Part shown: positions 16,065 through 41,157 of the stretch, in pieces
Layout of the letters: each line of letters opens with the position of its first letter
Position numbering within the stretch: the stretch's first letter is position 1
NCBI GenBank assembly: GCA_026874595.1
Contig: CM049318.1
Coordinates: forward strand, 7,790,741 to 7,854,740
Source: Sipunculus nudus
Lineage: Eukaryota; Annelida; Sipuncula; Golfingiida; Sipunculidae
DNA: 64,000 nt
Direction of reading: 5' to 3'
The notes under the pieces: model-generated
What the model was told of the DNA's origin: nothing
The model's database searches: none
Seen by the model: the letters and a program-made list of their open reading frames with translations, nothing else
Program-made: the position numbers and the translations under genes

Positions 16065-16193
16065 TCAGTTTCCAGTGTCCTCCACTGCTGCATGGTTAAG
16101 GTACCGGTAGACTTCAGCATGTAGTCTGACCAGCTGTCCACAGATGTCTATGCATGTCATGGTTAAGTCTGGATTCTGCAGCTCGATCTTTTC
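16065..16193 (-). CDS. terminal exon of nested antisense gene
   Basis: On the minus strand, AAAAATAGCAG precedes GAAAAGATC..., a phase-0 exon of 42 codons and TGA. It encodes an amphipathic helical segment including ICGQLVRLHAEVYRYL and ends ...AAVEDTGN. The plus-strand frames over the same bases are broken by stops, so the minus strand is the coding one. The preceding exon (16405-16459) leaves in phase 0 after a 211 bp intron with a strong GTAAGT donor. I do not recognise the family; the C-terminal helix suggests a soluble helical-repeat or complex-subunit protein. Confidence 0.62.
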   Translation of the reverse strand, partial: EKIELQNPDLTMTCIDICGQLVRLHAEVYRYLNHAAVEDTGN

Positions 16194-16404
16194 CTGCTAT
16201 TTTTCAAAAGTTTAAACATTTTCTGATACCAGCGTTATTTCCAGGTATGTTCTCAAGATGCATGTCATCAGAATAAAAGTGTCAATTTGAACAGAACAGT
16301 ATCATGATATTATTCTGTACATGCCATCATAAGCAACCATATCTGGCATCCTTGAGTATGGTTAACCAGAATGAGTAATTGTTTCACAGGATATTGATAC
16401 TTAC

Positions 16405-16459
16405 CAAAGCTGATAATTTAAAAGTCCTTGACCATTGATATAGTTCAGTCCAGGTAAAA
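16405..16459 (-). CDS. penultimate exon of nested antisense gene
   Basis: A 55 nt minus-strand exon with acceptor TATTGCCTAG and donor GCTTTG|GTAAGT. It enters in phase 2 and leaves in phase 0, reading FTWTELYQWSRTFKLSAL. The phase matches both neighbours: the 38512 exon ends with two bases (GG) that complete GGT with the first T here, and the 16193 exon begins in phase 0. The acceptor has a weak pyrimidine tract. An unseen exon in the 22 kb intron upstream is possible. Confidence 0.5.
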
Positions 16460-18599
16460 CTAGGCAATATTTACTTATCCCTGTTATATTTGTCCCACCT
16501 TTTTCGGTTTGTTGAAGCATTTTGGTTTGTGTTATATTGTATTTCTGTGAAATATTCTGTAGATTTCTTTTTATGTTGATGTAGCTGAAATACCCAGTAA
16601 TATAAATAAAAAAGAACACCACCACTTGGAATCGGGCAGTTTTTCGACAAAAAAGACCAAGATATATGTGCAGTTTCCAGTGCTTTACACCTAGGTTTAG
16701 AAGTACGTAATTTAATAGAAATATTTAACGGTAAAACTTGAATGCTACAAAGGATTTAATGGATTCCATATACAGCAAATATCTCTTCCCTCACATAGCT
16801 TAAAGTTTATGATGGTGCAGAGATCTATAATGTTTGTGGTTCAGTATAACTACAGGAAAGAAGAACATGGTACATTGTTTATAAATATTCTTAAGGTACA
16901 TCAGTAATGATTAGGTACATCGTTAATATTCGCAAGGTACATAACTTCCTGTTGGTCCAGCCCTCACCTGTCACAGAGAGACCTTATCAGAGACCTACAC
17001 AGTTCTTCATACACCAACAAAAATAACAAACCATCTTATATCATCAGAGACATAATCATATTTTTAAAATAACCAACAATTACCATCAGTCTACAAAGAC
17101 ATCAATAAAAATACTAATTTTCTGCTTTGGTTGGGTTTAGGTTTCTCTTTACAGCAACATAACCCAAGTCTGCAAGCTGAATCATGTCCACTGTAATCTG
17201 TTAATGGTGTGATAAACCTTGTAACAGCAAACTGAGGTTTTGGCTCTGATGACTGTGGTGGTATTAGGGTGACGATGTAATTTTACTGTACTTGACTTTC
17301 AAGCTTCATGACAATATCATTGATAACACATGGTGGAATGTGTGTGTGTGTGTGTGTCTGTGTGTGATATTGCTCAGTGGAACCTGTCAAGATTATTTCT
17401 GGTGTTTTAGATGTGGGTATACGTATTGTCCATTGGGGGCACAGGGGGGAATTAACTGATAATGATATTTGTATCATTACTTAATAAATTTTTTTTACAT
17501 AACATATTAAGAATATTTAAATTTTATTTATAAATTCAGGAGGTCAGTTTATGAATAAGGATCATACTTTCAGTAGACTTGTCTGTGGAACCATTACTGT
17601 TATTATGTGTAACTTAATATCATACAGACTTTTCATAATATTAACACTCTTTTGATAACAATGGTGTATGGTATAGAGGATCACCATTCTTTAACACAGA
17701 CAGTAAGGTAACTTGTCTATAATACAAGCTTGAGACTTGGGTGTGTTTCCTACTGTGACATCCCTTACTGTTTGTGTATATATATGTGTACCAGCTTGTA
17801 CTGACAGTTAATGCCCTGTTGTAGTGTTGCAGGTTTTGTCAGTATGTTACCCCAGGAAAGCGAGAGAAGGTACGGTAACATTACAAAGTAACAGGGGGCG
17901 GGGTAGATGTGAGGAGTTCCCTAGCACCTTAATCTTTTCCCTTTCACGGTGGAGAGGTGGCACTTAAAGAAATCTAGTTCCAAGTGTTTGTGGAGTCTTA
18001 CTTTCACAGGAGTTCAAGTTTGCATTGTTAATATCTTTGGTGTTAAAAGTCCACTACACTGAACTTATTAATTATTCACATATGTTTGAAGCACTGCAGT
18101 ATTTAACTGTTCTCTTTCCTGATCTCATATTTATATGGGTACTGGTAAGCCACAGAACACTGGTGTGGATGTGTGGTTTTGTTTTCAATAAGATGAATAA
18201 GGCGATTGATATATAGATATTAGTTAAGTGCTGTTAAACTTACAGCAGTATACTTTATAAATAAAAGTAAAGTTCCTCTTTTTAAGTTTAGAGCTATGTG
18301 TAAAGGCTCAGCCACATCCAATGCTGCCATGTGCTGTGATATAAGCTGAGCACCTGAAGGTGCATTTATGACAACCTTTGCCAAATGGTCAGCTGGTCAT
18401 GTGGCAATGCAAAGCAAAACAGAAGAGTCATGCTTGTTCTGCTTTGCAGTGAGGCAAAATTAACGACAGTCATTTCCACAAATTTTGGAACCATTGCAGC
18501 AATGCTGCACAGCACTAGAGAGAGCCTGATGCAGTGCAACCCACTGTGTTCAGTACGTCTGTACTGTAACATGGTTTCATGTTCCAGAAATATATTTCA
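16460..18599. other. intronic sequence, a TG microsatellite and a GC-richer stretch
   Basis: Holds a (TG)n run at 17341-17357 and a GC-richer block at about 18300-18570 open on both strands (63-76 codons) without clean splice signals; it abuts the ~320 bp repeat and may be part of a decayed element. Nothing else supported. Confidence 0.4.
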
Positions 18600-19318
18600 A
18601 AAGAGAGACTTCTAGCTATATTTTGGGCTGTAGTCAGAAATCCTGTGTGGAAAATCTGTTTCAGGATCCAGTTAGTATTATTTTAGTATTTATGCCTTCA
18701 TAATTCAAGTAAAAACTAGATATTTGCATTCAGAGAACGCTGCAAGACCTCTGCCAAGGTAGCTCATTACCCCCATTTGGCATTGTCAGAAATGCAGCAT
18801 TTTTCCTTTAAAAAAATTCCTGGATCCACATTGTGTTCCAGATCACCCCAAAAAATTAATCAGTAGTTCCTTGTATTATTGCCGAGCTATCCTGAAAATT
18901 TGATAAAAAATCATTCAACAGAGTGACTTCTAGCTATAATTTGGGCTGAAGCCAGAAACACTGCTTGAAAAATCTGTTTCAGGATCTAGTTAGTATTATT
19001 TTAGTATTTATGCCTTCATAATTCAAGTAAAAACTAGAAATTTGCACTCAGAAAATGCAGCTGGACCCCCGCCAAGACAGCTCATTACCCCTATTTGGCT
19101 TTGTCAGAAATGCAGCATTTTCCCTTTAAAAATTCCTGAATTCAGATGGTGATCCAAATCACCCCAAAAATTTTAATCAGTTGTTCCTTGTATCATTGCC
19201 AAGCTATCCTGAAAATTTCATCAAAATCTGTTAATAACATGTGATGTTGCTAACAGACATGCCAACAAACAAACCAGCACCAGCAAAAACATAACCCCAG
19301 CTTGGTGGAGGTGATAAA
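18600..19318. repeat. two-copy ~320 bp tandem duplication of a dispersed repeat
   Basis: The sequence starting GAGAGACTTCTAGCTATA near 18603 recurs near 18922 (GAGTGACTTCTAGCTATA) and both copies then run in parallel for about 300 bp. The second copy ends with CAACAAACAAACCAGC and CTTGGTGGAGGTGATAAA, which resembles a repeat tail common in aquatic animals ending in a ...TTGGCGGAGGT... block. Non-coding. Confidence 0.8.
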
Positions 19319-20610
19319 GTTATTGGACCTGGCTGATGGTGATTCTCTGTTCCTTCTATGCATACTCACCTGTAGTTATTATTTGATACCTTAGGTTGCA
19401 TCTCCTGTGGTTTAATGCACTCCCTGGATATAGAACAGGTTATTTATATAAATAAAAAAATTGTTGTAAATGGAAATTTATAACTTATTAGATACTCTAT
19501 TTTGTGTATAATAGGCTCTAGCTTTCCTGTAAATTTCTTCACCATCTGACATTGATGTTAGTGTAGATCTCATCTGTTCACAATTCCTTTCTCAACAATT
19601 GTTCGTTCTCTGTCTTTTCACCATGTAACATTAAGATGTTGCAATGTGAAGCCTTAATAAATCAAATGAATTTTGTAATAGCTATTACACTGCAACTTGT
19701 TGAAAACAATATGGGGTAAGAAACAAAACCATTCCATAAACCCCATTAGACAAAACACTTTTGAAAAAACAAGGAATTTTTTATCATCATTATAGTTTGG
19801 CAATGTCCATTCATACCAAGATAAGGAAAGTTAATGGTTGGAAAGAAGCATTTTTACAATCTATATTGCTGTTTTAATGTATTTTGTCCTTATTTATTGT
19901 TTTCCTACAGTTCAGGAAAAACATATTTACCATTTATGTACATACATTCAAACATTTCTTAAAGCTTTTGTTGATATTATTACTAAGGTTTTCTGTCGTA
20001 TCTGAAAGAATTTTATGGTTTAAATGTGTTTCATTAACCAATTGCTAATGTTGCTGGTGCTTAAGGGATTTTCAGTGTTTTTATAAATTTAGATAATCCT
20101 TAATAATAAACACTAATGAAACAGTTATACAATAAATATATTGTCTTGGTGATGGTCCGTTCGTTCTGCTCATAATTAAAAATTTCATGAGTATAACATC
20201 AAATGGACTGCTCTCATTAAAAAAGTACTGTTCATGTTTAAGTTTGTTTTGGTGACATGCAATTACCTTAATGATAATTTGGTACAGTGTTTGAACTGGC
20301 ACAAACCATTGTTTTGTAAGTCAGCCTGTCCTTCCATCCATTAACATGCAATAACTAGGTGTAGCTGCAATAACTTAACAGGAGTTCCATGGATTTTCAT
20401 GAAACTCATTGTGAACCTTTGCCAGTGATATGACTCATCAGAGTTTTATTCTGTGCAAAATCTGGCCATATTGAATGAGATAAAATATCATCAGACTTTG
20501 ATATTTTAGAAAGGTCATATTAGAAAGGCAATATTAGAAACACATGCTGCATTATCAAATACCTTCATCATAACCTGCTGCCATTGCAATTACAGTGTGT
20601 GGGGACCTGC
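19319..20610. other. intronic AT-rich sequence, nothing recognised
   Basis: No open frame with coding character, no repeat family and no RNA gene seen between the ~320 bp duplication and the 40 bp satellite. Confidence 0.5.
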
Positions 20611-21722
20611 CAACAGTCACATTGTGTGTCATGCTTGGTTTATTACCTACAGCCAGTCACATTGTGTGTCATGCTTGGTTTATTACCTACAGCCAGTCAC
20701 ATTGTGTTTCATGCTGGGTGTATTACCTACAGCCAGTCACATTGTGTGTCATGCTGGGTGTATTACCTACAGCCAGTCACATTGTGTGCCATGCTCAGTG
20801 TATTACCTACAGCCAGTCACATTGTGTGCCATGCTCAGTGTATTACCTACAGCCAGTCACATTGTGTGGCATGCTGGGTGTATTACCTACTGTCAGTGAC
20901 ATTGTGTGTCATGCTCAGTGTATTACCTACAGCCAGTCACATTGTGTGTCATGCTGGGTGTATTACCTACAGCCAGTCACATTGTGTGTCATGCTGGGTG
21001 TATTACCTACAGCCAGTCACATTGTGTGTCATGCTGGGTGTATTACCTACAGCCAGTCACATTGTGTGTCATGCTGGGTGTATTACCTACAGCCAGTCAC
21101 ATTGTGTGTCATGCTGGGTGTATTACCTACAGCCAGTCACATTGTGTGTCATGCTGGGTGTATTACCTACAGCCAGTCACATTGTGTGTCATGCTGGGTG
21201 TATTACCTACAGCCAGTCACAGTGTGTATCATGCTGGGTGTATTACCTACAACCAGTCATACTGTGTGTCATGCTCAGTGTATTACCTACAGCCAGTCAC
21301 ATTGTGTGTCATGATGGGTGTATTACCTACAGCCAGTCACATTGTGTGCCATGCTGGGTGTATTACCTACAGCAAGTCACATTGTGTGCCATGCTCAGTG
21401 TATTACCTACAGCCAGTCACATTGTGTGCCATGCTGAGTGTATTACCTACAGCCACTCACATTGTGTGACATGCTGGGTCTGCATTTACCTACAGCCAGT
21501 CACATTGTGTGCCATGCTCAATGTATTACCTACAGCCAGTCACATTGTGTGCCATGCTGGGTCTGTTACCTACAGCCAGTCACATTGTGTGCCATGCTCA
21601 ATGTATTACCTACAGCCAGTCACATTGTGTGCCATGCTGGGTCTGTTACCTACAGCCAGTGACATTGTGTGCTATGCTCGATGTATTACCTACAGCCAGT
21701 CAGATTGTGTGCCATGCTGGGT
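20611..21722. repeat. 40 bp satellite, about 28 copies
   Basis: A 40 bp unit made of TATTACCTACAGCCAGTCAC followed by ATTGTGTGTCATGCTGGGTG repeats almost without gaps. Variants replace the last block with ATGCTCAGTG and TGTGTC with TGTGCC. A 2 bp insertion occurs near 21481, after which the array alternates two monomer types (ATGCTCAATG and ATGCTGGGTC), an 80 bp higher-order unit. Because 40 is not a multiple of 3 and the unit lacks stops, all three plus frames are open for long stretches; these are not genes. Confidence 0.95.
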
Positions 21723-24122
21723 GCAATGCTTTTTTCTCACTGCTTGAAGAGACAGCTAAACTGATGTCCACCCTGATCAATCAAGAGTCAGCTTACCTAC
21801 CATTTCAACTGCATGATAAAAACCCAGTCAGGTTATCTGTTAACAACATCAGCAGCCTTTCAGATTTTAAGCTGATCCAGAAGTTTTTCCCATTTTGTGG
21901 CTATACTGACTGCTTCGTCTTAACTGTGGCCTGGGTTTTGCAATAGATTTGCTTAGTCCTATTTTGTTTTTAAATGTGGAATACATAAATCTATAGGATC
22001 ATAAGGGTACTGAGTGTTATATAAAAAATTTGCATCAGTTCACAGAATTTCTTTCAGTCCATCCTGTCCAATTGTTCTAGCTTCAGTACATAATATAAGG
22101 CAATAACAGACCAAGTATCAGTCATTTGTTTTGTGAAAGAGTCAAAGTTTCCAGAATAGCATTAAGGGAAAAGACCCAGTGTATGCATGAAATACATTCT
22201 GTAAGAAAGTAAAATTATGTTGTCGAAAGTGTTTGTTGAAATACTCATTGGAAATAAAAAAACAGTGAATGAATATGATTTATAAAATGAATATTCTATT
22301 TATTTATATTCATTGGAGTATGTTAAAATAAGCAAACTTGCTTCAGTTGTAATGGTGGCAAATCATTCCAAAATGGCAGCTATTTAACATCCCCAGACCA
22401 CATAAATCATTGATTTGAATTTTAATCTGTAAGTCTTGTATTATTAACCAGTTAATCAACAAGGAAAACAACTTTTCTTATTCATTATTAAAATAGACAC
22501 AACACCCAGGGACCAATCATGAAATTCCTATGCTGTCATGTGTTATCTTTATTTTGTATTGGTATCACTCCTTAAAAATTAATTAGCATTATGCTAGTGT
22601 ATCATTAATGACTGTATATATATTTTAAAAAGATATATAAGAAAGAGAAAAAAATAATAAAAAATCCAGAATGACACAAAGTCATTAGGTAGAGATCATT
22701 ACAGGAATTAGATGATAACCTGTGGCTGTGAGTAACCAGTTTGGTCACTAAGTGCCACAGCAAATGACCAGGTCATATTAATAATGTGGCAGCGAGTGAC
22801 AACAATACCACAGAATGCCTGCCTGTTGCCAAAAGATGCTCATAGTGCTTTAATGTTGCAATAAAACTTCACTTTTTGGAGATTTTGTGCTTACTCAGCT
22901 TAATTGCTTTGACAGACTAAAATCATGATGAAGTAATTTAAGTAATATTAATTGACCTGTATAAATAAGTTTTGTATAAATAATTGCTTTGCGCTGATGT
23001 TACAATCATTCCCATGCTACCTGTCTGAAGCATTGTTCTTACAGAGAGAGCGATTTTATGATTTATTAAAATAAAAGTGTCAGTTGAAAAGAGAAAGGGA
23101 CAAATAGTGACAAACATGCAGACAGAATGACAAACTTTAATACTACTGAGACAGTTCAGTACTCAATGGTACTCCTTTGAACAAATTAAACTTTGTGGAT
23201 CTTCATTTTCCCCTGTCACATTGATGTAAATTTAGTTCATGCACACATTACATTTAATAAAGTTATTTTTAGTTCTGATCAGCTCAGCTGATAAAAAGAA
23301 AAGAAAAATAGAAAACAATTGTGATGACGAAACAATGATGCAGGAAGCATTTTAGTATAGGACTGTCACTTTTGCCCTGTAGTGATATTTACTGCTACTA
23401 GGTGAAGCAGATCTGCTGTAAAATTGTTGTCATGCTTCCATCACTTTGCTTGCCTTGGGAGTATTCATGAGCCTTGTATATTTCATCCTCTGACTAATTT
23501 GTTTGTGGTGTGGCTTGCAATAACAAATAGTTCAGTTTGTTTGTGTGCCTACTAAACAAATCAATACCTGTGATAGTGCTTTTGTTTTGCAGCCGTTATT
23601 CATTCTGTATGATCCATTATTCAAAGGTTCTAAATATTCCTGAATATTAGTTCCAAGTGACCTTACCTTGGGTAGATTCTGAAGTTTCCCATTATGTTGT
23701 AAATTGTTTTGTTTATTATTAATAATTATGATTTTACAATATGGATTTTCAAAGATTAACTACCTTATTAAATTAATTATTAAAATGGATTTTTTTTTAT
23801 CTGCACAGCTAGTGATTGTCAAAATAGCATATAGGTTTATGTATATTAGGGAAGAGAACCACAGATTTACTTGGAAGGGAAACTGAACATTCAATATAAC
23901 TCGTCTGTTTATAATTTGAAAAATTTTTCTATTTTTGGAATCAGAGAAGATGGGAGAAAAAAGTACTCTTTATCATTTTACTTAACCATTCCAAACAGGA
24001 TGTAATAAATAAGTAATTATGCCTAATTTGCCAGTCAATACCTACAGTATTAGGTAACTGATCCACAGGCACAGGTGTTATAAAAGTTAAACAATGGCGC
24101 ATGTGCATGTTATTGTTTCCAG
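21723..24122. other. intronic AT-rich sequence, nothing recognised
   Basis: After the satellite there is ordinary low-GC sequence. The short open frame at 23704-23886 is AT-driven. No repeats, tRNA or splice-flanked islands seen. Confidence 0.5.
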
Positions 24123-24212
24123 ATGGTACGTTTCCTTCGCATGTGTATGCACGGCGTCGTCATCGCAGGCTCTGTGTGGTATGCAACCAGTCGCAAAGAC
24201 CCACTACAGTGA
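24123..24212. other. CpG-containing coding-like island, strand ambiguous
   Basis: On the plus strand TTATTGTTTCCAG is followed in phase 0 by 29 codons and TGA (including HGVVIAGSVWYATSRKDPLQ), compatible with the phase-0 donor at 7725. On the minus strand, after a CACTGTAG acceptor near 24211, an equally open frame contains CDDDAVHTHAKETYHLETI and CTC near its end. Both cannot be real, and neither may be. Base composition differs sharply from the surroundings (several CG dinucleotides). Confidence 0.22.
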
Positions 24213-24225
24213 CCAGCATCAGTCT

Positions 24226-24665
24226 GCTTCAGCATACGTGTTTATTCATCAGGAATGTAATTAATATTCCTGCATATTCATATCCTTATTGAAACCTTAT
24301 GGATTGATATGATAAATGGTTGTGTACCTGTTGGTGAAGGACCAATAAAAGTGAATCTCAGTTTTAATAAAAAATATTCAATCAGCATACATGTTTATTC
24401 ATTAGGACTTTATGCATATTCATAGTGAATCATACTCTCATTAAAACCTTACAGATTGATATAATAATTTGTTGTGTACCAGTAGGTGAAGGACCAATAA
24501 AAGTGAATCTCAGTTTTAATAAAAAAACATTCAATCTGCATACATGTTTATTCATTAGGACTTTATGCACATTCATACCCTAATTAGAATCTTAATGGTA
24601 GATATGATAATTTTTTGTGTACCAGTTGATGAGGGACCAATAAAATTTAATCTCAGTTTCACAAA
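24226..24665. repeat. three tandem copies of a ~154 bp unit
   Basis: CATACRTGTTTATTCAT recurs near 24232, 24386 and 24539, and GGACCAATAAAA recurs near 24338, 24491 and 24636. The unit also contains a TTGTGTACC block. Decay is greatest in the first and third copies. Confidence 0.8.
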
Positions 24666-24963
24666 ACAAAAACATATACACTCCTGGCACCTTTGTTAGA
24701 TGACGTCAAAATATATCATGACAGTTGTCTGCTTGAGATAATAGTTACACCCAAACATCTTTAAATCTCTGTGTTATTTAGTTTCACAAAAATTTATTCA
24801 TATTTTTTATCTTTTGTTTAATGAAATTTCATGTTGGAACTTGTTTGGCTTTTGAGGCAATACCTGGTGATACTCCTGAGAGGAAAACTACATTGGTTTT
24901 ACCATTTATCTTCAGTGCTGAAGTATCAAAGTCCTTACATGATTTATTAACACTTCTGAACAT

Positions 24964-24965
<2 letters not shown>

Positions 24966-24999
<34 letters not shown>
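24966..24999. repeat. (AT)n microsatellite
   Basis: Uninterrupted AT dinucleotide run of roughly 32 bp. Confidence 0.95.
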
Positions 25000-25005
<6 letters not shown>

Positions 25006-25349
25006 AAATTCATTTAAGTACTACTTTCTTGTGAGCATACCCTGGTGGTTTGTCCTGTCATATATGGCACTGATGTGATTGCATCTTAAAAAAAAACCAC
25101 TTATTTATTACTGTAAAAGGGATGTCAGGGTTTATATGAAGAGGACAGCATTAATTAATCATATGATGTGGATTCTGCTGGATTTTATAGGATTATAAGC
25201 AACCAGTCCAATATTTTGCTGTATCAGGTATGTCCTGAAGCTAAAAAACTCATTTGCACATATATATATTATATGCATATATGCATGAACAGTTGCTTTA
25301 AAACCCATGTGTGTGTGCCTCTGGAATGCCTCTGTTCACACAGACCATG

Positions 25350-25547
25350 CAGGGGCGGATCCAGGATTTAGGAAAAGAAGGGGTCTTAAACCCAGAAGGA
25401 CTAATGAAAAAACTAAACAAGTCCTCAGGTCTGGAAAAGGTGGGGTCAAGGCCGCAAAATTGGTCTGGAACCCTTTAAAAAAAAAGATTGCGGCGGCTAA
25501 AAAGGGGGGAACCCCTGGCCCCCTCCTCTAGATCTGCTTCTGCCGTG
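25350..25547. mobile_element. decayed MITE-like element with imperfect terminal inverted repeats
   Basis: The left end CAGGGGCGGATCCAG and right end (reverse complement CACGGCAGAAGCAGATCTAG) are imperfect inverted repeats around a G/C-rich body with AAAAAGGGGGGAACCCCTGG. This resembles the widespread invertebrate non-autonomous elements beginning GGGGCGGATCCAG. No transposase is encoded; open frames across it are incidental. Confidence 0.5.
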
Positions 25548-28500
25548 TATGTGACTGACGGACACATTGGTCTTACACAGTTGCAAAATCATATGAATGG
25601 TTTTTCATATGTATACAAACACACACACATAGGTTTTAGCTGTATAAGGCCTTCCAGGACTGAACATCCCTGATCTAGCTTCTTACATGTCGAGGAAGCA
25701 TACCAGTGTGGTAATCAGTGCTGGTCTGGAGCCTCAGGGGCAAGTGGTCTAATTCCACCACGCACTAGATAAGCTTAGCTTTACTGAAGATACAGTCTCT
25801 TCTTTTTTTAATGTTAACATTGAAAAGAAGAATGTAATTTCAGTTGCGTCATTGCTGAAACAAGCACTATAAGTATGTTTGTTTTGTTTTAAAAGTCTTT
25901 CCTGCAAGTCCAGAAAATAATGACCTCAGATGTGTGCCTCAGAGCTAGCAAAGTATGAAAACCAATGATTAAATATGTTAATTAATAGGTAAGATTTAAC
26001 CAAGCCTGGTTGCACTTGATGTACAGATCTCAGGTACAGCATGGTTGAGTGACTGTCAAGTCCTTCAGCTCGGTTGTCATTTTCAAGAAAGCTGTAATGA
26101 TCATTAAATTAGATTTCTTATAACCATTAATACATACTTAAAATGCTTTTAATGACTAACAGTTACTGCTAAGTTACAGAAAAATCATCAGTTTGCAAAA
26201 CTTGGAATCCCCCGAAAAATTGTCTTTGTAAACTGAAGACAATGCAAATTGTATAGAGAATAAGTTTGAGAAACCATTAGTAACCATCAAGCAAAATGGT
26301 TCTTGTTGTGGTCTGCTGTTTTCTTAATTATCGCATCTTTAGGAGGGATCATCAAATGATCATTATTGTCTCCCCCGTTCTGGGGATGCCATGTTGTTAT
26401 CAGTGCTATACTCTGTTGTCTGTAGGGTTTCTATTGAACGTGATAATTACTGAAATGCTGCAAGTTTTTTTTTTCATGAAATTTTAAATTCAAATAGTTT
26501 CTACCAAAATCTTGGACACTTGAAACTGGTGAAGACGTTGTCCTTGATCTTCAAGGTCAAATAAGCTGAAACGTAAATTTTTTGTGAACCTCATAACTTA
26601 TGAAATATAACATATATTTCTCTCAAATTGACACACCTGTTGTTTTCTACCACATTCACAAAGGAGTGCAAAAACCTTGATTATCAAGTACAATTCTTAG
26701 AAGTATATGATTCCTATAAACTCCATATATTTTGAGATTGTGCAGATGTTTTCCCCTTAGACTTTTGGATAGGGGCCCATAAGGGAGGTAGATAAACATT
26801 TCTGGTTTTGCAACTGCAAAAACAAAGCTTTTCTTGTTACCTCTGCTAAAAGGGTTGTACATCTCATTGTTTATTTTTACTAGTAGGATTACACAGAGAC
26901 TGCAGAATCAATCCCCATTTAACTTTGTTGAGGGGTATAACATGGCCCATCTTTTCAGTGGCTAAACAGGTGGATCATGAAAGACTGGTTAATTGCATAC
27001 CTTGACAGAGATATGTACTCTGTAGGTATAGGTTTATTTCATGTTTGATGGGTGCCACTTCTTAATCATTAATTTAAATAAAAAAAAAGAGAAAAAGAAA
27101 ATATGTTTGACATTCATTATAAAAAAGGTTGAGCACAGTCAGTTATTAAATACCCACACTATTTGTTTCTTTTTAGAGTGAAATGCATCTTCACTGTTTG
27201 TAAATTGAGGTAAATATTTAAATTTGAACATAACATACATGTTAGTATCATTCAGAGTGTATATTTATGTTTATTTATGAGACATACCTTAAATATCTTA
27301 AATTTCATGAATATATTTGAATGATATTTACAATTTGTTATGCAAAAGAGATAATGGCTTGATGGCTGATGTTCATAAAAACAGGAGGAAAGCCAACTGA
27401 ATCTTGGAAACAAAAAAAATATGTGTATCTGCAGAATTAGAAGTTACTATTGAGAGTGTTTTATAATAATTATAAAATCATATGGCTGTGAATGTATGTA
27501 GAATATTGGGTTAAGTATCTATATGATTATGTATGGTAATGATGCTTGAATTAAGGCATTTATCAATTGAAGTGCATTTAATAAAAGTGGAGAATGGAGT
27601 TCTTTTTTGCTACTGGTTGTTCTCTTTATTTGCTGCATTATGATTGGTTGATATAATAATGGTATGCAAGATTTGTATAATAATTGCTATATGAGTTGAT
27701 GAATGTGTGCCTTTGATTTGCAAGAACAACAAGGTAACCTGGTAAGCAAACCATGGGTAGATATATACTAGTATTTGATTTCCTATTGTCTGAATATGTC
27801 ATGAAGATAATTGTGAAAGGCCTGAAATTTTATTCTTTTATCACTCTTTGGTGATTTAATTAATTCCTCTAACTTCAAACTGATGATGGTTCGTTTGGTA
27901 CATTGAAAAAAAATCTGTCAATCAGGATAGTATTTAGTCTTTGACCACTGCATCATATATGAATTTTTGTTAATAAATTGTCAGATCTGTTTATAAAGTT
28001 AACCTGTAATCATGTAGGCATATGCCTGAGTTGAATTGAATAAGACCAAAAGCCATACCTGTGAAACATACTTGTCTTGTAGAATTTATTTGATTTCTGA
28101 CTTACTCTTGGTACATATTCATGAACTACTGGTAAATTCCTGTGAAGAAAAGATCTTATTACTCCAGTGTGATGGATGTTTGAACAGCAACAAGCTGTTA
28201 GTAAACAGTACACTTGCCCATGTTGATAAACAAAAAACAAACGTGTGACCTGATTGCACTTATGCATAAGTTAATTGAGAGGTCACTGTTCACTGTTGGA
28301 GAGAGCATGGCAACAACGCATTTCTTGTCATAATAACAACTTGCCTGATTTGCCACCAGATGTCTCTGTTGGTCATGTATTGATAATTAATGGTCACAGT
28401 AGCCATAAAATTTTTGGGGCCCCCCTCGTGTTTTAAACATGTGGATATAAACCAAATGGACAGCTTGTGGCACAGTGCACTGTGGGATCAGGGACTTTTG

Positions 28501-28559
28501 GCCAATTGTAATAAAAAGTTAGAGATCAGCTTTTAAATATTTATTTTACCTCAGATATC
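25548..28559. other. intronic sequence, nothing recognised
   Basis: AT-rich with short incidental open frames (26296-26487 plus, 26656-26862 minus, 28010-28267 minus). No repeats or RNA genes supported. Confidence 0.45.
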
Positions 28560-28885
28560 AGGATAGACCCCTTAAAGAACTAGAAATCTGCTTTCCAAGG
28601 AATACCAGCATCCCCCATGTGGGCATTCACTTATTTGGCCGATATTCCCAGGTTCATTCGTGCATAAGTGACTGACCTTTTGTGAATATTCCTTGATGTT
28701 GCTGAATCCAGACCATGTTCCAGATCCACACGAAATTCTAATTGATTCATTCTTGGTCCATTCTGAAATGCCTTGAAAATTTCAAATGATTCCATTCATA
28801 ATTGTGCGAGTTATTTTGTGAGCAAACACACATGCAAACACACAAAAAGGAATGTACACACCCTTCTGGCAGAGGCAAACATATA
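28560..28885. repeat. dispersed repeat copy related to the 18.6-19.3 kb element
   Basis: Contains the same ordered blocks: TTCCAGATCCACAC, a CTGAAATGCCTTGAAAATTTC block, a string of AAACACACA-type A/C motifs, then CCTTCTGGCAGAGGCAAA. Diverged from the earlier copies. Confidence 0.5.
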
Positions 28886-29859: not shown

Positions 29860-30720
29860 CTCTCTGTAGTGCGTCAATCTGTGCATCTGTTTTGACTCAT
29901 TAACCCACATATCTCGGGAACCATTTGACCAACCGGAATAAAAATTTGCACAAATGTAGCCCTTGGATAGCTTTATAATATACATAAAAATGGTGGCGCC
30001 ACCTGCAACCATTTTTTCACAGCATCCATCTGTACATCTGCCTTGGGATAAAATCAGTCATATCTCTGCATTGGTTGGCCTTATCCACCTGAAATTTTGC
30101 ATGTGTATACATCCTGGACAGCTTTCTTGATTTTATGACAGGTGGCGCCACCTACATTCATGTTTACACTGCAGACATCCAAGCTAATATCTTGGGAACC
30201 ATTTGACAGATTTGGCCAAAATTTTGCATGTGTATAGATCTCACATAGCTCTTTATCATACGCAAAACTGGTGGTGCCACCTGCAACCATTTTTGCACAG
30301 TATCCATCTCTTTGTGTGCCGTGGGATAAAAACACTCATATCTCTGCACTGGTTTGACTTATCTGCCTAAAATTTTGCAGGTTTATACATCTTTGATAGC
30401 TTGCTGGATTTTGTGGCAGGTGGCACCACCTACATTAATGTTTACGTTGCAGACATCCAGGCTTATATCTCGGGAACTGTTAGACTGAATGGGCCAAAAT
30501 TTTGCACGTGTATAGATCTCCCATAGCTCTTTATCATATGCAAAACTGGTGGCGCCACCTACAACCATTTTTGCACAGTGTCCGTCTGTTTGTCTGCTGT
30601 GGGATTAAATCACTCATATCTTGGCAGTGGTTTGACTTTTTGCATTTGTATACAACTTTGAAAGCTTTCTGGATTGATGGTAGGTGACACAATCTACATA
30701 CACATTTCAGCTGTAGACAT
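29860..30720. repeat. ~277 bp tandem repeat with GGTGGCGCCACC palindromes
   Basis: GGTGGCGCCACC or one-base variants occur near 29993, 30143, 30271, 30420 and 30548. Two alternating contexts (followed by TGCAACCATTTTT or TACATTCATGTTTAC) each recur at about 277 bp. ATATCTSGGGAAC and AAAATTTTGCA blocks repeat in register. About 2.5-3 copies. Confidence 0.8.
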
Positions 30721-30868
30721 CCATGCTAATATGCAACACACCTCACTCTATTTCCCCTTGTTACTCAATCCATGCCTCACTTCACCCATCCCACTCTGAT
30801 TTCAGCAGATACATGTAGTCTTTTGTCGACTACCCGTATTCTAGTTAAACATTCTGTTCATCAGCAGA

Positions 30869-31042
30869 TACAGTGAAACCTGTTATAGGACCACAGATGG
30901 GACTCACCAAAAATGGTATTAATTCACACGTGGTCTTATAAGACAGGTCAGTTATAGCCAGTGTGAATGGTTCACTCAAGGGTGGTCTTAATAGACAGGT
31001 GGTCTTATTGGATAGGTAGTTTTTAAGATAGGATTCACTGTA
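30869..31042. mobile_element. MITE with TACAGTGAAACC termini (copy 1)
   Basis: 174 bp bounded by TACAGTGAAACCTGTTATAG and the imperfect inverse AGGATTCACTGTA, flanked by TA, the target preference of Tc1/mariner/pogo elements. The interior has inverted GGTCTTATAAGACAGG-type blocks. No transposase. Confidence 0.65.
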
Positions 31043-32160
31043 ACTGTGCATGGAAATAGGACCATCCAGGAAACCATGGATTAATATTGTACTGTACAAA
31101 TGTGAATTAATTGCTAGAGTGAGTAGACTTGGGTCAGAACTGCATGCATCTCTAGAGGTAAGTTAATGAGGAAAACATGAGATTATATTCATATTTATGA
31201 ATACATTTAATAAAATCTAATGCTATCAGTATAGGTTTGTGATGAGATCACAATAAAGTAACCATAAAACAAAAAATAAAAAGAAATTGCAAATTTCACA
31301 TTTACAGTATGCAGTGAAGCCATGACCACAGTATGTTTTGTATTTGTAACTATTTGCATGCTGGTAATGAAGACCTGAATCTGCATTTAATCCTACACAT
31401 TCATTCATAGAACCATGAAAAATCAGTTCATCTCACAACACACATAACTGTTTTGAAATAATTGGCACAGAGTAAACAGTTACAATGTAAACTGGATCTG
31501 TTGTAGTTAGTGTATTGTGTGTGAGAAATTGGCAGTGTACTACGCCGTGTGTGTACCATAAAGTTCCTACCATATGAAAATACATACAATAGAAAAAAAA
31601 ATAATACTACCTGTGTACTATTAAACCTGAACAGGTAAATATTATCTCTAGCCCAGGTGTGGGTTAAATATATATTTGCCTTAAAGCTGTGTGCACAAGG
31701 TCTGTAAATAAACCATAAAGCAGTTTCTTGGCATAAGCATGCCTGAATAATTACGACCGGTATACCTGTTCACAAATACTTCTAAGGTAAAATATTTGTT
31801 GATGTGCAAGAAATTTTATCTTAACACTTGAAATGCATAATATCCATATAAATATGTACTTCTAGGTGCCACTGTACCTTATAGTACCTTTCTTTCTGAC
31901 ATTTATAATTATATGTTCATACGATTGTCATGAATGAACTTGTATTAATAGAATTATCTATTATTATGAGGAATAATTGAATTAAATTGTAACTGCATGT
32001 TTTATATCAATTGAGCTTATTGATTGTTATGATGAGAATGATTAAAAATTATAGTATTAATATAAACTTTATGATTGTTGAGTCATTAATCTTAAACAAT
32101 ATATTTTTTATATTATCACAGTGAACATATATGTCAAAAACAGGGTGAACATATATATAC
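31043..32160. other. intronic AT-rich sequence, nothing recognised
   Basis: Includes an isolated GAG|GTAAGTTAA donor-like site near 31158 with no matching exon. No other feature supported. Confidence 0.45.
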
Positions 32161-32164
32161 ATTT

Positions 32165-32592
32165 GTGGTAGGAATTGGTTTATAAATTATAATCAGTGAT
32201 TGAAATATAAAAACGACTGATGATCAATTATTATTCAATTATTTTATGCCATTTCTATATTAACTTGAAATCGGTCGTATACTAGTACCTAAAATATTGA
32301 CCCCAGTAAATAGTCTGACATGTACATTGGTTTTCACAATGAAACCATCAATGCACCCGCATCCAAGGTAGACTTGCTGTCATACGATTGATGCCTGCAC
32401 AAGGTTCTGTTTTGTTCTGATGCTGTTCCTTGCTTACATGTGATGGTATATCTCTAACAGGATAAGATTCTTTGCATGTGTTTACATAATTGTTTTAAAT
32501 TGATTATGCAAAAATGCAATTGATTTAATCAGTTTTGAAAGATAAAAAATAATCATCAATTTAATCAATTAATCGGCACACATACCACTAAT
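32165..32592. mobile_element. dispersed ~420 bp element, copy A (inverse of 57.4-57.8 kb)
   Basis: Aligns along its length, in reverse complement, with 57379-57787. Shared blocks include TGACATGTACATTGGT, GAAACCATCAATGCACCC, GATGCTGTTCCTTGCT, ACATGTGATGGTATATCTCT and TATGCAAAAATGCAATTGAT. The outer ends carry GTGGTAGGAATTGG and the inverse of TTAGTGGTATGTGTGCCGAT, resembling hAT-type non-autonomous elements. No transposase. Confidence 0.8.
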
Positions 32593-34510
32593 AAGTACAT
32601 AAATATATATTAAACAATATGGTAACCCTTCAGCAGATCACTTTAACTAGAAAATGGAGAGCAATGTACTCGTCATTATTTAAAAATTTTTCTTTTACAT
32701 TATTCTCTTTGGATCAGCCTTGGTCATTTTTTGTGTTTTACATAAATTGGATCTTTGCATGGCAAAACACTGTAAACTTTGAGAGCTTAATTTCCAGCAC
32801 TGACACTCGCAGCCTTGTCTGCTCCACATCAAAGGAAGACAACACAGTCATCCAGTCACCTCATAAAAAATGTATACCAGATCACATGATCATAAATCTG
32901 GTCACACGACATTAAACGAGATCTCATGACTATGTATGGGAAAATTACCATTACATGAAAAAAAAGAATCAAGTTAATTCAGACATCTCATATAAAATTT
33001 AAACCAAATCACATGATAAGGAATAAAGTCACAAGACCTTAAATGAAATCTTTATGACCATTTATGCAAAAATTACCATAACAGGATAAAAAAAATGGTA
33101 TTAAAAATCCATTGTTCCAACAGTTAATAAAATGTAGTTTTACTCTGTAAATTCTTTTAACTGTTCATGTAATGCTTTGATATAATTTAAAAGTCTTTTT
33201 CCAAAATTGCATAGTCATAGTTCCTTTAAATTATGTTTCATGAACTAGTATGCCCCTTTTCCATGCTTGAGAATCCCCCCACCATGTGACGTGTTTTCAC
33301 AATGGATTCCCCTTCCACTACTGATCAAATGCAACAGTGGTGTAGCTATATGTTTTGTACAGTTCATGCATGCAATTATGGTTTTTGTTCCATTTACAGG
33401 GATGTATTATGTAGTGTGGTATTGAAAGTTTGGGGGGGGGGGGGGGGCTCATATATACCAACCCACCCAAATAAACCAGAAGATTCCTGCATGACTACCA
33501 CAGCTAGTGATCAGATATTTCACACACATGTATATATATATAATAATCATTAAGTAGACAAGAATTGCTGCAATTAAATGTGATTTGTCACCAAGATATG
33601 GCAACAAGCAGACTGCATTCATGTACTTGACCTCTACAAGAAGATTCACCTGTGTTCGTTTCTGAATTAATGCATGGAAAAGCTAAACATGATTTACACT
33701 TGTGTGATTTTTCGTGTAGAAATGCATGCTGAAAAATAAAATTGCCCAGTATTCAATATACTGATGAAGTGATAAAATTTTCAAACATGCACATATTACA
33801 GTATTTATAGTGATATACCAGATGTGGAAGTAGAATCAGTTTTATTGAGTAGGGGACAGTCAGAATTTACCAGATTAAAAAGGGGTCATTAAAAAAAATA
33901 ACAGATTAAATTGGGGGGGGGGGGGGGGCAGTCACAAAATTCCAGAAAAAAATACTTTTCACTATTCTAATTTATTTTAAGATAGAAATATACATATGAT
34001 TGTGCATATATAATTCAGAGGTACGGCAAATTCTCTAAATTCCTCTTGGACATAATATGACACAGCAACTGTGCATTCCAGCAAGGAACAAAAATAGCTG
34101 TTGTCAAGAATGAATACAATCAAAACTGGATTGTGCACTATTATTGTACACATGTATAGTAAAACCCTGTAGGCCAGACATAGGTCTGCCTTATTTGTGA
34201 ACCACAATCCTGTAATTAATACTTAAATATATCAACAGTGCCAGTGTTATTACTCAGAGCCAGCCATAGCATGCACTGGACTGAGCCAATTGCTTGCATG
34301 TTGGCCACAAATTGGTACTCATGGGTATTACAGGATCACAGGCCTACATGTTTTAGTTCTTATGGAATCAGTTACAGGTATGCCATTACTAATCCCCCCC
34401 CCCCCCCCTTTGTTATTTCTTCTCCTTTATATTCTGAATGAGACTCTACTTAGGTAAAGGTGTTATTTTATGATTTAATGTATAAATAAAACATTTTTTT
34501 TATTTGAGAA

Positions 34511-34512
<2 letters not shown>
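32593..34512. other. intronic sequence with poly-G and poly-C tracts
   Basis: Poly-G at 33432-33447 and 33913-33928, poly-C at 34394-34408, each next to a GTGGTGTAGC or GGGGACAGTC-like block that may be ends of decayed non-autonomous elements. No coding exon seen. Confidence 0.5.

Positions 34513-34513
<1 letters not shown>

Positions 34514-34570
<57 letters not shown>
34514..34570. repeat. (AT)n microsatellite
   Basis: Interrupted AT dinucleotide run. Confidence 0.95.
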
Positions 34571-34579
<9 letters not shown>

Positions 34580-34926
34580 TTATATATGTACATATATATA
34601 TTTATGTCTAATAGGCCAAAACCAATTTTTTTAGTGCGGTGGGTGTGTAAATTTTTTTTATATTTTTTATTTTCAATTTAATATGATCAGGGGATAAAAT
34701 GATAATAACAGAATTCTTTAGCTATGGTAAACAGTTTAAAAGCTCAATATAATAAAACAAACATTTTTTTTATATTAAAATTTTTTTTGTTTTCATGAAA
34801 AGAAAATCTGAGCAGCTGTAACTGAAAATCTTAAAAAATCAACTGAAAATAAAAATAAACATTTTTTTATGGAGGATGTGTCAAAATAGATAAGCACAGT
34901 ACCTGAGCAACAATCCTTTTTGGATG

Positions 34927-34928
<2 letters not shown>

Positions 34929-35011
<83 letters not shown>
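34929..35011. repeat. long (AT)n microsatellite followed by (AC)n
   Basis: About 80 bp of AT repeat, then ACACACACACACAT to about 35042. Self-complementary, so strongly hairpin-forming. Confidence 0.95.
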
Positions 35012-35024
<13 letters not shown>

Positions 35025-35634
35025 TACAATACACACATACATATGTACATATATATATTAAGTCACATAGAAATTTGCAACAGTGTGAACATAATAAAAA
35101 CAAAAATTAAATGTTTTTACTGACACTTTGCAATGATAAAAGTGACAGAAGACAACTGAGGAGCTCTAGAACATGATGGATCCTTAGAATAATCAAAGAA
35201 ACCACTAATTAATGCAGGAGATAATCCAGTCAACCAATATGAACTGAGGAGTGTGTAGGCCAGCTAAGTAATGTGAAAGGCATAGGTTAAAATACAGCGG
35301 TACCTGTAGTATCCAATTACCAGGTAATACCTACAGGTATGGCTACTGAAAGGGCTATGTGCTCAACTAACAAAGTCTACCCTATGACCTGGAAACTCGA
35401 GTCACAATAAGTACAGCCTTGCTGTTTAAGCCTTACCTATCGAATCAGCCAGGGGACCCACTAACACATGAAAAACTAGTCAGAGATGTCTCAGTCATAA
35501 TAGAAGAGACGTGATTGAACAGTAATTCAGGTAGGGTAGTAGTTCTAGGTGTATATTAGTCATGATATTATTAAGGTATTTTAGACTTAATTAACAGGTA
35601 AATGTATTGGTGTGATTCACTGGGGGTAAATGTG

Positions 35635-35946
35635 TATAAAGTGCTGGTATAGAGCCAGCTCTGTATAGAGTACGTGCCTATACCTGTAGTGATCAATAGT
35701 TACCGAGCATTGGTACCTGGCCTACAGGAATGTTTGTGTACATGTGCCATGAATCCCGCCACGTTTGAGTGTGACAGCAGGACAGGTCTGGTGAGGCTAC
35801 ATGTACAGGAAAGTAAACATCTGACAGATTGTGTGTTTTGATATGTGCTCAAACCAGGAATACAATGACACTTTGTATTATTGACCACCAAGTGTATATA
35901 ACAGTGTTGGATTCATATATATCAGGACATGGAGACAAGTGACAAT
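35635..35946 (+). promoter_or_regulatory. possible internal promoter and short coding start
   Basis: A TATAAAG box at 35635-35641 lies about 290 bp upstream of GGACATGG at 35926-35932. From that ATG six codons (METSDN) lead to AAT|GTGAGT at 35947, a good donor in phase 0, matching the phase-0 acceptor at 63374. A second TATATAA at 35895 is too close to the ATG. Speculative: TATA-like strings are common in AT-rich introns. Confidence 0.2.
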
Positions 35947-37639
35947 GTGAGTAGCTTGTCCTTAGTGTTTTCGTATTTCTTCATTACCCTTCTGTGACTA
36001 TACACACTTATATTTATCAAAACCTGGCAGTTGTTGAACGCCTATAACAGAAGCACCACTTTCATGTTGATTAATAAGTTAACATCCCTGAGCAGTTTAT
36101 CTATATCTATAACAAGTTAAACCCTATTTAGTTGATCCTTTGATGTGTCTCAATTATAGCTTTTGCTCGGATCCACATCAACTTGATCAGGTTAATAGTT
36201 TTATAGATTTGATTTATTTTGCATAAATGTGTTTGAATAGTATACAGATTAAGACATGGTCCTAACTTACTTTTTATTTTGCATTTATTCAGACATATGA
36301 CTGAATACTTGTTATATGCCATATAGAGTCATTCATGAAAACAATTTGAATATTCATGAAAACAATTTAAACATTTTTCAGCTCTAACATTCAGTTCCTA
36401 CACAACAAATATACAATTCCCTTTACCCTTGACTTCTTTAGTTAGGAACTATCAGTACCTTGGGGCCTTAGGTAATATTTAATCCATCACTGAAGTCTAA
36501 AATATGTTTATAGATAGAGAATGCAAACCAGTATGTTACAGTATGTTATATATAGTAGTTTATAGGGCACAGTGCAGGGCAACATGGTGTTAGTTTAATC
36601 TCCCTGAAATTGGTACTTGCAGTAAGACAAGTACAGGTAATACGGTACATGCTTGTGTGTCTCTAGTGGAATTCAATACAGCAGTACAGACGTTAAGACA
36701 CACCTGTAATTGATTTGTGACCATGTTTGTACAAGTCCTTATGTAAACAAAGCCTCTGGTCCCTTGAACTCAAGTATTTGTCTGTTGTACATTTTTCATC
36801 TGCCGGCAGGACTTGATATGTTCACCGTTACAGATAACCTTTGAAGTGTGTGCATCTTTGTGGACAAAAATCAAGTATGCTTAATTTTGATCCAGATCTC
36901 ATTGTGCTCATACATTGTTACAGGTAGTTTGTAAAATTATTTCACCTTTTATACTGCAGTTGTCTCTCTGTTCATGAGGGATTAAAATCGCAATATTTGC
37001 ACCAAATGGAAATTATCACAAAAATGAAATCTCCATGAATAAAACCCCCCATCTAAATACGTGAATGTTCATTTATGGTGTAGCCTTATTTACATCTCAT
37101 GTGCGGTGTCCATTCCTGTAGGTCAAGTTAGAAACTGGCAAAAGATTGATGTTATAAATAGTAAGTGATCTTACATTTTACCCTCCTGCAAACATTTATG
37201 TTATAAATATAGTATAAGATATTTAAATTATCTGTCAATAAAACACAAGATCAAACTTCCACTTGTTTGCTGTTCCCTTTTGTATTTATCAAAATTTTAA
37301 GATTATATGAATTAAATATTTCATATAAGTTATAACAAAAGAAAATTATTTGTTTCTTAAGTATGAAGAGATAAAAAATGGAACCCTCGTGAAAAATTGA
37401 AAAAGTGAAAATCACAAAAATTTAAGCCTGAAAATATCAAGCCAACCACAGCTAGTGTATGTTTGTGTATAAAGCATACCTTGCTGACACCAGAGATCAA
37501 AAGTGTCAGCTTTATCATTCTCATATCATTATTACCTGTAGCCTGGGCTAGTACATTTGTACAACAAGATAAAGTCCTCAGGTATCAGTTACCTTGTGTT
37601 CTAAATCTCATCTATATATGTAATCTCTCTACCTGCAAG

Positions 37640-37672
37640 TCAATGCTGATAACAGGAGAGCTTGTTAAAGAG
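37640..37672 (+). CDS. possible 33 nt phase-0 micro-exon
   Basis: TAATCTCTCTACCTGCAAG precedes TCA ATG CTG ATA ACA GGA GAG CTT GTT AAA GAG, followed by GTAAGA. It would add SMLITGELVKE between the phase-0 sites at 7725 and 63374. The AAG acceptor is suboptimal. Confidence 0.2.
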
Positions 37673-38511
37673 GTAAGAGTCATAGTTACCTGAGAGAGTA
37701 CATGCATCATATCGTCATGAAGGTTTGATTGTATTAAAAATGAACTCTAGGCAAACTGATCATGGGTATCATATTTGTTTTTTCTGTACAGAAGAAACTC
37801 TAAATGGACCAATATTAGTTGAAAAAAGTGTATGGCATACAAAGTGTCCACCCACTCATATGTTCAACTTATATTTATCATACTTGACACCTTGTAAGGT
37901 CTGAATGTTTTTGAATGAATATAGCTGTACTGTCAAGTAAATCACCTTGCCACTTCACCCTGAAAACATAAAGAAATCATTATTAAGCTCTCACTTTTAC
38001 AAAAAAAGAGATAGAAAAATTAATTTGACTCTAAAATAAAGGTAAAGGTATCTGAGATGTTACCCAGGTTCATAAAGTTTTTCATTTTTAGTTTTCATAT
38101 ATCTGTTTATCTAAAAATGATTTTTATTGGAGCAATAAGTTAAAACAGTAAGAAATATAATTGTAAAAGAGGAGTTATAGTCATAAGTTGATTAATGTGC
38201 ATTACTTGCTGGAATTAAAGTACTGGTTAAAAAATTTTCTTTTAAATTTGCTGTGTTGTGCAAATTAAAAGTGGCATTTGCACAAATTAATTTTGGTATT
38301 TGCAGGGTGAGTATTGTGACAAAGCGTGACATTTTAAAAATCTGAACCCTATATTTACATGGAATAAATACACTTTTTTTGTGAAAGGTGTATTCTCCAT
38401 CAGGACAGGTACATTCACATTTATTTGCAATATATGAAACTGGTTTAATGCACACCCTGATATATAATCAGTCAGTAATTGATTCAGATTGATGGTTGAT
38501 CAGTGACTTAC

Positions 38512-38716
38512 CCATCAGGTAAAGGATCCATCGGGGCATCCAGTGACGGGTCAACAAACGAGACTTCTTGGTTATGTGCCAGGAATTCCAAACAGAGAAA
38601 AACAGATCTCCCCATTATAATGGAGTCGGTCTTCATCTGTATAAGAGCATTATAGCTTCTTTCCACATTCACAACACCAGTTTTCCCATAAAACTTACAT
38701 GTAATATTGAGGATGG
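38512..38716 (-). CDS. main recognised exon of nested antisense gene
   Basis: On the minus strand an excellent acceptor (TATCTTCTTTTTTCTGTAACAG) and donor (GATGG|GTAAGT) flank 205 nt with 67 uninterrupted codons (phase 1 in, phase 2 out). The product includes ILNITCKFYGKTGVVNVERS and CLEFLAHNQEVSFVDP and ends DAPMDPLPD. It is GC-rich against an AT-rich background. Phase agrees with 40123-40183 upstream (one base left over) and 16405-16459 downstream. Residue pattern suggests alternating helices; I cannot name the family. The gene runs antisense inside the intron of the coiled-coil gene. Confidence 0.72.
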
Positions 38717-39283
38717 CTGTTACAGAAAAAAGAAGATATACCTAATGAATTCATACACATGGCTTCTAACATAGTCATATTTGTTTGTTCAAATAATAAG
38801 AACTGTGTGTGTGTTCATGTTTTGTGTTGTTGTACATTCTTTCTTGTGATCATATGATTTTCTAGGTGTTTTAGGTTGTTACTGTTGTATAGATGATACC
38901 TGGACCTGCTAGCTATACACACTGATCAGAGCTGTGTATTAACTGGCTTTGGCTACTGGGTGTGGACTGTCCATGTTAGTAAACAGCACTGAGTGGACCT
39001 GCTACCAGCTCAATTACACACTCAATGTACACAATCTGACAGATATTAAACACTTCTATTACCATGGTAACAACTAATCAACATACCCTCTTGTACTTTT
39101 TGTGATGCAAGACTTGAGGAGAATATACTAAAAGCAAAGAGAACTAATTAAGTTTTTGCTATTTAAACTTAGATTACCTCACTGACTCCAAGGCTCATGA
39201 CATGGAGTGCATTTTACATCTTTGTAGGTATATTATCAGGAATCCTTGAATTGTAAAATTAAAATGAGAATTTTAATACATTT

Positions 39284-39640
39284 TTAGCTCAACTGACTAT
39301 AAGTCAATTGAGCTATAGTGAAGATTCTTTATCTGTTGGCTGTCTGTCTGTCTGGCTGTCCATCACCAATCTGTTAAACTGTTAAAGCGTTTGGCCTACA
39401 AATCTGAAATTCAATATACAGTCAGATGTCACCGTAGTGTGACTTTGTTCCTTTGAGAAATTAAGGAAAACCTCAATTTTTTATCAATACATTAAATTGA
39501 AAGTAAAGGTAACTTGTATCCTGTCCAATTTTAGACATTTTCAATGGCTTGTCTGTGTGTTTTCATTTACTTCATGTGACCGGTTAGTTCATAAATACCA
39601 ATGTATATAAACATGTACATGAATATGTAAATGAAGGACT
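39284..39640. repeat. dispersed TTTTAGCTCAACTGACT repeat (copy 1)
   Basis: Begins TTTTTAGCTCAACTGACT with the nearby inverse AGTCAATTGAGCTATAG, then GTCTGTCTGTCTGGCTGTC, AAATCTGAAATTCA and ATTAAGGAAAACCTCAATTTT. The same block order occurs at 51.75 kb. This family is typical of mollusc genomes. Confidence 0.75.
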
Positions 39641-40122
39641 TGTATTTGCTGGCATATGGTGCTGTAAGTCAGCATGAAAATCAATCTTGTTGGCCATCAA
39701 GTACCCAAGTACAGCTTTTATGAGGCCACTTCAATGCACTAATTGTATAGATATGTTGTAATTAGACGAGCTGTTTGGATTTTAATATAAACTTTAATAA
39801 AAAATGATATATTGAAAATAATTTGACAAAAGAATTAAACCACTTGTGAATGTAGTTGGAAAATTTCAAGCATATGTTGTGCTATCAAGACAAAACTTCA
39901 ACCTTAACAGCTTTATGTAATTATTAAGAATACTTAAAGGCAGGCAGATATGATTAGTCAGCTTAATTACATTAGTCACTGTAGAAAAAAACTCGTAAAA
40001 AGTTATCAGAACTGCAAAGCTCTCCTGGTCTGCCAGTAAGTTTATAGCAGTCAATTGATCCTCAGATGCATGATTTAGTCATAATTGGCGCCCCAGGTAA
40101 CAGCCTGCAGGTCCTCGTTTAC

Positions 40123-40183
40123 CTTGCCATCCAGCAATCCTGTGACTAAGGTTAGCGTCATCGATCAATACTTCAGACAGGAA
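40123..40183 (-). CDS. exon of nested antisense gene
   Basis: Minus-strand 61 nt exon with acceptor GGACTTTGGCAG and donor CAAG|GTAAAC, entering in phase 0 and leaving in phase 1. It reads FLSEVLIDDANLSHRIAGWQ plus one base, which completes a codon with the CC starting the 38716 exon. The plus strand over the same bases is also open (to about 40260), but the minus frame alone joins its neighbours in phase. A TGA just upstream of the acceptor sets the 5' limit. Confidence 0.55.
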
Positions 40184-40601
40184 CTGCCAAAGTCCATCTC
40201 AGTACCAGGCTACTGCAAGGCTGGATTGGACAAATGTTGTTGGCACTCTGAGAGTCATGAAGGTACACTGATTTACTTAAATATAAAATTACACTGTTTG
40301 ATCCAAGTATTGATTATGTAATATAAAAATAATATCAGTGTTTATAAGTGATAGATTTTCTAATTCCAAACTGGTGATATTATCAAGATATTTGTATTGT
40401 TAATGTCATTGTATTGCAGTGTTACTGTGATGTGTCTGATTAAGAATTTAATACAGTATTTATATCAAATCGTCCATAGGGATATTATTTGCAACAACCT
40501 GACATGTTTGAAGCATACTGGCACCCATTCTTTTTCATGGTTGTCATTGGTTATAAAATGATCCCAATCTAGGTAAACTAGTATCCTTAATTTCTCCCAA
40601 C

Positions 40602-40607
<6 letters not shown>

Positions 40608-40635
<28 letters not shown>
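40608..40635. repeat. (AT)n microsatellite
   Basis: Uninterrupted AT dinucleotide run. Confidence 0.95.
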
Positions 40636-40638
<3 letters not shown>

Positions 40639-41073
40639 GATTTCTTACCCAGGTATTTAGCTATTTCATTCACAAATTTTATGTCTACTTAGAGGTGTAC
40701 CATTATACATAATTAAGATTCTTCAGCTATCACTTATAATGTTACCTGTTTGGTAATCACAGTTGGATTTTTCTCACTGGTGTTTTACAATCAGTGCTCA
40801 GTGAGAGGGTTCCTGTCAATTCACTTGAATTTGAATATGGGGAGATACTAAAAGAACATAAAAATAGGGGAAAAATTGATATACCAAGAGAGTAATGTGT
40901 TAAAACTGAACAACTTTCAACGGACAGTGGGATTTAAATGGAACAACCCTTTAATACTGGAGGGGAACTGTCAGCAAATTTATATTGCTCATGTAACAGC
41001 CTCTCTGCAGACTGCATGGGCTGTGTTTAATAGTCTGACAATATCTGATTAAATGGCCCTAGGGACCAGTTAC

Positions 41074-41157
41074 CTGTAAGGGCTGCATTGACTGAAATCT
41101 GTGGCTGCCACACATACCACTCCTTGTATATTTCAGGGTATTGATCCTAACAGCTGA
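41074..41157 (-). CDS. exon of nested antisense gene
   Basis: Minus-strand 84 nt, 28 codons, phase 0 to phase 0. The acceptor is AAGGCCCTCTCAG and the donor TTACAG|GTAACT. It includes SAVRINTLKYTRSGMCGS and ends FQSMQPLQ, leading directly into FLSEVL of the next exon, about 0.9 kb away. An alternative acceptor 12-13 bp upstream (TACACAG) would enter in phase 2. The upstream exon is not certain. Confidence 0.52.

Follow-up and report, generated by a model that had tools for sequence, protein, structure and literature searches.

A pair of exon candidates on the minus strand, 41146-41074 and 38716-38512, would form the core of an ordinary spliced protein-coding gene lying tail to tail with a plus-strand GAS2 coiled-coil gene. 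Both lie in the window of Sipunculus nudus DNA analysed here, the whole stretch of 64,000 nucleotides. We put the probability of this convergent minus-strand gene, with these two exons as its core, at about 0.55. Spliced together, the two exons would encode 92 residues, and 5' exons would lie above 41146, perhaps beyond the window. In a literature search, none of the listed titles concerned this locus.

The two candidates derive from a set of five minus-strand islands, which an earlier note had joined into an antisense gene nested in an intron of the plus-strand gene. Extraction and translation placed all five at the coordinates claimed, each bordered by AG and GT: island 1 at 41157-41074 (GC 0.45), island 2 at 40183-40123 (GC 0.46), island 3 at 38716-38512 (GC 0.42), island 4 at 16459-16405 (GC 0.33), and island 5 at 16193-16065 (GC 0.48), which reads EKIELQ...EDTGN and ends in TGA. 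Their phases also chain as described, the joined frame of 534 bases giving 177 residues and then TGA. That the islands are rich in GC holds for islands 1, 2, 3, and 5, which exceed the value for the window (0.359), but not for island 4. No other copies of the islands were found in the window (no match at E 0.01), although two short matches fell in the 100-base flanks that had been added.

Splice sites and coding scores of the islands

The matrices used to score splice sites were generic metazoan ones; they and the amino-acid frequencies were approximations, not trained on Sipunculus nudus. Percentiles refer to the 4451 AGs and 4782 GTs counted on the two strands between 17 and 61 kb; this reference left out a 22-base tandem array and kept other repeats and the islands themselves. 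The array (44108-46729) has 119 copies with 90% matches and coincides with the GC peak of the window (0.53). The donors of the four internal junctions named in the earlier note were at the 97th-99th percentile of the GTs, but four of the five acceptors were average: 41157, 40183 (score 1.3), 16459 (score -3.0), and 16193 were at the 53rd, 61st, 24th, and 53rd percentile of the AGs, respectively. Only the acceptor at 38716 was exceptional (99.9th percentile). Among length-matched open null frames, the fraction with at least as high a codon score was 28% for island 1 in the frame of the earlier note, 7.6% for island 2, 8.4% for island 3, 51% for island 4 (a coding score equal to the null median), and 5% for island 5.

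The best-supported exon candidate is 38716-38512 on the minus strand (205 bp), which reads ILNITCKFYGKTGVV...PLPD, with one base carried in and two carried out. Its acceptor scored 11.0 and its donor 8.8 (98.9th percentile), and it is open over 67 codons, a length that is open at 1.07% of null positions. With the plus gene and the 22-base array set aside, no internal exon on the minus strand scored higher than its total of 29.7. This stretch looks like an exon and is fairly well supported as one.

Island 1 has a better alternative in a different frame. An acceptor that lies eleven bases into the island, at 41146, scored 7.4 (97th percentile), versus 0.4 for the acceptor at 41157, and the coding score rose from 1.6 to 4.7 in the frame that it opens, a value reached by 8.7% of null frames. 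With its donor (8.8, 99th percentile), 41146-41074 on the minus strand (DQYPEIYKEWYVWQPQISVNAALT; one base carried out) is a possible upstream exon, in a frame other than the one first proposed. It joins 38716-38512 directly, phase-compatible and stop-free over 92 complete codons, without island 2. The latter is superfluous if 41074 joins 38716, and we consider 40183-40123 doubtful as an exon. Among the islands and their variants, 38716-38512 and 41146-41074 were the ones with good minus-sense splice sites on both sides.

The core pair and the case for chance

The open frames, the splice-site quality, and the phase fit of the core are direct observations. They make a moderate case for the pair, carried chiefly by 38716-38512 and by how well the two exons fit together. 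We infer transcription, the long introns, and any function of the gene, and only the look of the peptide leads us to guess that the product would be a soluble protein. A minus-strand coding gene of some kind seems to us somewhat more probable than its absence, because 38716-38512 and the re-framed 41146-41074 resemble exons, but not in the five-exon form.

The opposite reading, that all the islands are chance open frames in noncoding DNA and that no minus-strand gene exists here, is on balance unlikely, though a serious competitor. Random strands reached a total of at least 29.7 in 3 of 60 cases, and the 20.9 obtained for 41146-41074 was equalled or exceeded in 50 of 60. The plus strand also showed a similar surplus of exon candidates: those scoring at least 20 numbered 8 on the plus strand and 10 on the minus strand, versus a mean of 2.4 and a maximum of 6 in 30 random sequences, and each strand had one scoring at least 28 (0.03 in random sequence). 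As good candidates are in surplus on both strands, this surplus does not point to a minus-strand gene in particular.

Chance is also consistent with the database searches, in which the minus-strand peptides had no significant match in Pfam, PDB sequences, IMG/VR, or GTDB contigs. Versions of the peptide gave weak PDB matches (E 0.96 and 0.64) and a Pfam match to Prok_Ub at E 0.18 (12 bits versus a cut-off of 25). The IMG/VR scan yielded no pattern match, and of 50 pattern matches in GTDB, none was confirmed. Because these databases include no general eukaryotic protein collection, the lack of a homologue says little. The scans of the window for tRNAs and for Rfam families (gathering threshold) were empty.

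What argues against chance is the coincidence of the two exons. Two joint cuts were applied, both chosen after the exons had been seen. Under the first, 38716-38512 was the sole minus-strand exon to pass outside the plus gene, and under the second only 38716-38512 and 41146-41074 passed there. In the random control (60 strands, each of 53 kb), the first cut was passed by 10 exons and the second by 9. The two passing exons, each flanked by splice sites, are moreover neighbours, in order, and phase-compatible.

Possible continuations of the candidate gene toward its 3' end

Two continuations of the convergent gene past 38512 can be envisaged. At least one missing exon may lead to 16193-16065 and its stop, or 38512 may be spliced to 15493-15385, with the gene continuing further. 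The second, in which islands 4 and 5 are skipped and the 3' end is another, is a variant of the preferred reading and compatible with it; we hold it as tentative and rather improbable. The stretch 15493-15385 on the minus strand (QLSTAKETYIIQKQASSRSRAARGGASDDDLWSGLV), absent from the original set, is phase-compatible with 38512, and the frame stays open across the junction. It scored 27.3 in total (acceptor 7.6, donor 7.1), and 0.66% of open frames of its length had as high a coding score, the best percentile of the seven versions tested. However, this junction requires an intron of 23 kb, and no convincing terminal exon was seen between 15385 and 10640. The stretch may also be due to chance or belong to another gene, a total of at least 27.3 being found in 4 of 60 random strands.

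Both 38716-38512 and 15493-15385 were present in all five optimal chains computed for the minus strand, at exon costs of 10 to 18, although these chains insert other, weak pieces between 38512 and 15493. None contained 16193-16065 or 16459-16405, but the latter fell below the acceptor limit and hence was not selectable. At costs of 14 and 16, 41146-41074 was joined directly to 38716-38512. At a cost of 10, a shortened 41146-41118, 40183-40123, and other pieces were used; at 12, 40170-40123, a shortened form of island 2, appeared, and at 18, 41146-41074 was dropped. The scores over 53 kb were 484, 312, 178, 91, and 47 for costs of 10 to 18, versus 159-227, 75-116, 39-83, 14-42, and 5-19 in the random control, which consisted of eight sequences of 30 kb per cost. 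The optimal chains were dropped as gene models, since the real ones pass through numerous weak pieces and across the 22-base array.

The window also contains a 40-base tandem array (20614-21723; 27.7 copies, 92% matches). Three plus-strand frames are open in it, over up to 407 codons, probably because the repeat unit rarely holds a stop. The 407-codon frame had no Pfam match.

The five-exon gene exactly as first joined, with its stop at 16065, would need a bridge, because the two bases left over at 38512 rule out a direct junction with 16193. This bridge is island 4, the weakest of the five, which is probably not an exon. Island 5 itself is a possible terminal exon. Its GC content and its coding score (9.2, the one reached by 5% of null frames) favour the five-exon gene, but with an acceptor of 0.4 its sum as a terminal exon is only about 9.6, and such candidates are common in random sequence: a random 50 kb strand contained, on average (n = 20), 102 terminal candidates scoring at least 8 and 48 scoring at least 10. 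The polyadenylation signal offered as further support does exist, an AATAAA starting 181 bases downstream of the stop, but this hexamer is found within 190 bases at 21.7% of minus-strand positions.

The open frame of 177 residues, with its consistent phases and its four good donors, is the remaining argument for the five-exon gene. Phase consistency turned out to prove little when compatible chains were counted. Between 16.0 and 41.2 kb, under limits roughly as loose as the five islands require, with a donor above 6.9, an acceptor above -3.1, a length of 50-210 bases, an open frame, a coding score above -1, and no GC filter, 68 candidates on the minus strand (61 distinct stretches) and 55 on the plus strand (44 distinct) gave 15,857 and 10,246 phase-compatible four-exon chains, respectively. 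A consistent chain is therefore expected, and compatible phases hardly discriminate at all. With four ordinary acceptors out of five, island 4 at the null level, and a better alternative for the first exon, we regard the five-exon gene as improbable.

Position relative to the plus-strand gene

The plus-strand neighbour is represented by a coiled-coil coding exon at 1-7725, open from the window edge over 2575 codons and ending in phase 0 with a donor of 8.0, and by a probable terminal exon at 10181-10630, which holds the end of a GAS2 domain, a Ser/Pro/Arg-rich tail, and an in-frame TGA at 10628-10630. The junction from 7725 to 10181 fits in phase 0. The Pfam match to GAS2 (PF02187) in 10181-10630 was significant (E 1.8e-9, 37.8 bits versus a cut-off of 21.3) and covers only positions 44-66 of the 69 in the model. 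The first part of the domain was not seen by eye among open pieces of at least 25 residues in the intron 7726-10180.

The exon has an inner donor at 10555, which scored 7.3. Beyond this donor, GC is still 0.486 over bases 10556-10627, whose coding score 3.9% of null frames reach, and it falls to 0.31 in the 100 bases after the stop. Because the GC and coding signals persist past 10555 and GC then falls, the exon most likely extends as far as the stop. The plus gene thus appears to end 5.4 kb short of the islands, at 10628-10630, and the arrangement appears convergent. The nesting in an intron of the plus gene, as put forward in the earlier note, is disfavoured by this in-frame stop in a GC-rich exon and by the coding signal past 10555.

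A plus-strand exon candidate at 63374-63481 (score 34.5, phase 0 at both ends), encoding an acidic peptide (ELDSGDQQGEEAATPAALGLTDGLTAHSMADQDLMQ), was the highest-scoring in the listed part of the window. The peptide had no match in PDB or Pfam. The candidate could follow 7725 or 10555 in phase 0, and it may be part of a set of plus-strand exons that continues past the window edge. That a long GAS2 isoform runs from donor 7725 or 10555 to 63374, with a possibly lineage-specific antisense gene inside the resulting intron of about 53 kb and a short isoform ending at 10630, is in our opinion very improbable.

Convergent (tail-to-tail) gene pairs are a known arrangement. The present locus resembles them in that the minus-strand candidate exons lie downstream of the plus stop at 10630 and point toward the plus gene, but differs in that the minus-strand gene has only candidate 3' ends. 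Antisense nested intronic genes are exemplified by Drosophila 2mit, which is reported to lie inside an intron of tim2 (PMC3786989). The likeness to these is that minus-strand candidate exons occur near a large plus-strand gene; the difference is that the plus gene here appears to stop short of these exons.

The five-exon product and its nesting should not be carried forward in the form in which they were stated. Consistent splice phases over long introns are, by themselves, weak evidence, since the same 25 kb holds thousands of such chains per strand. The two-exon core, if real, would represent one more ordinary gene.
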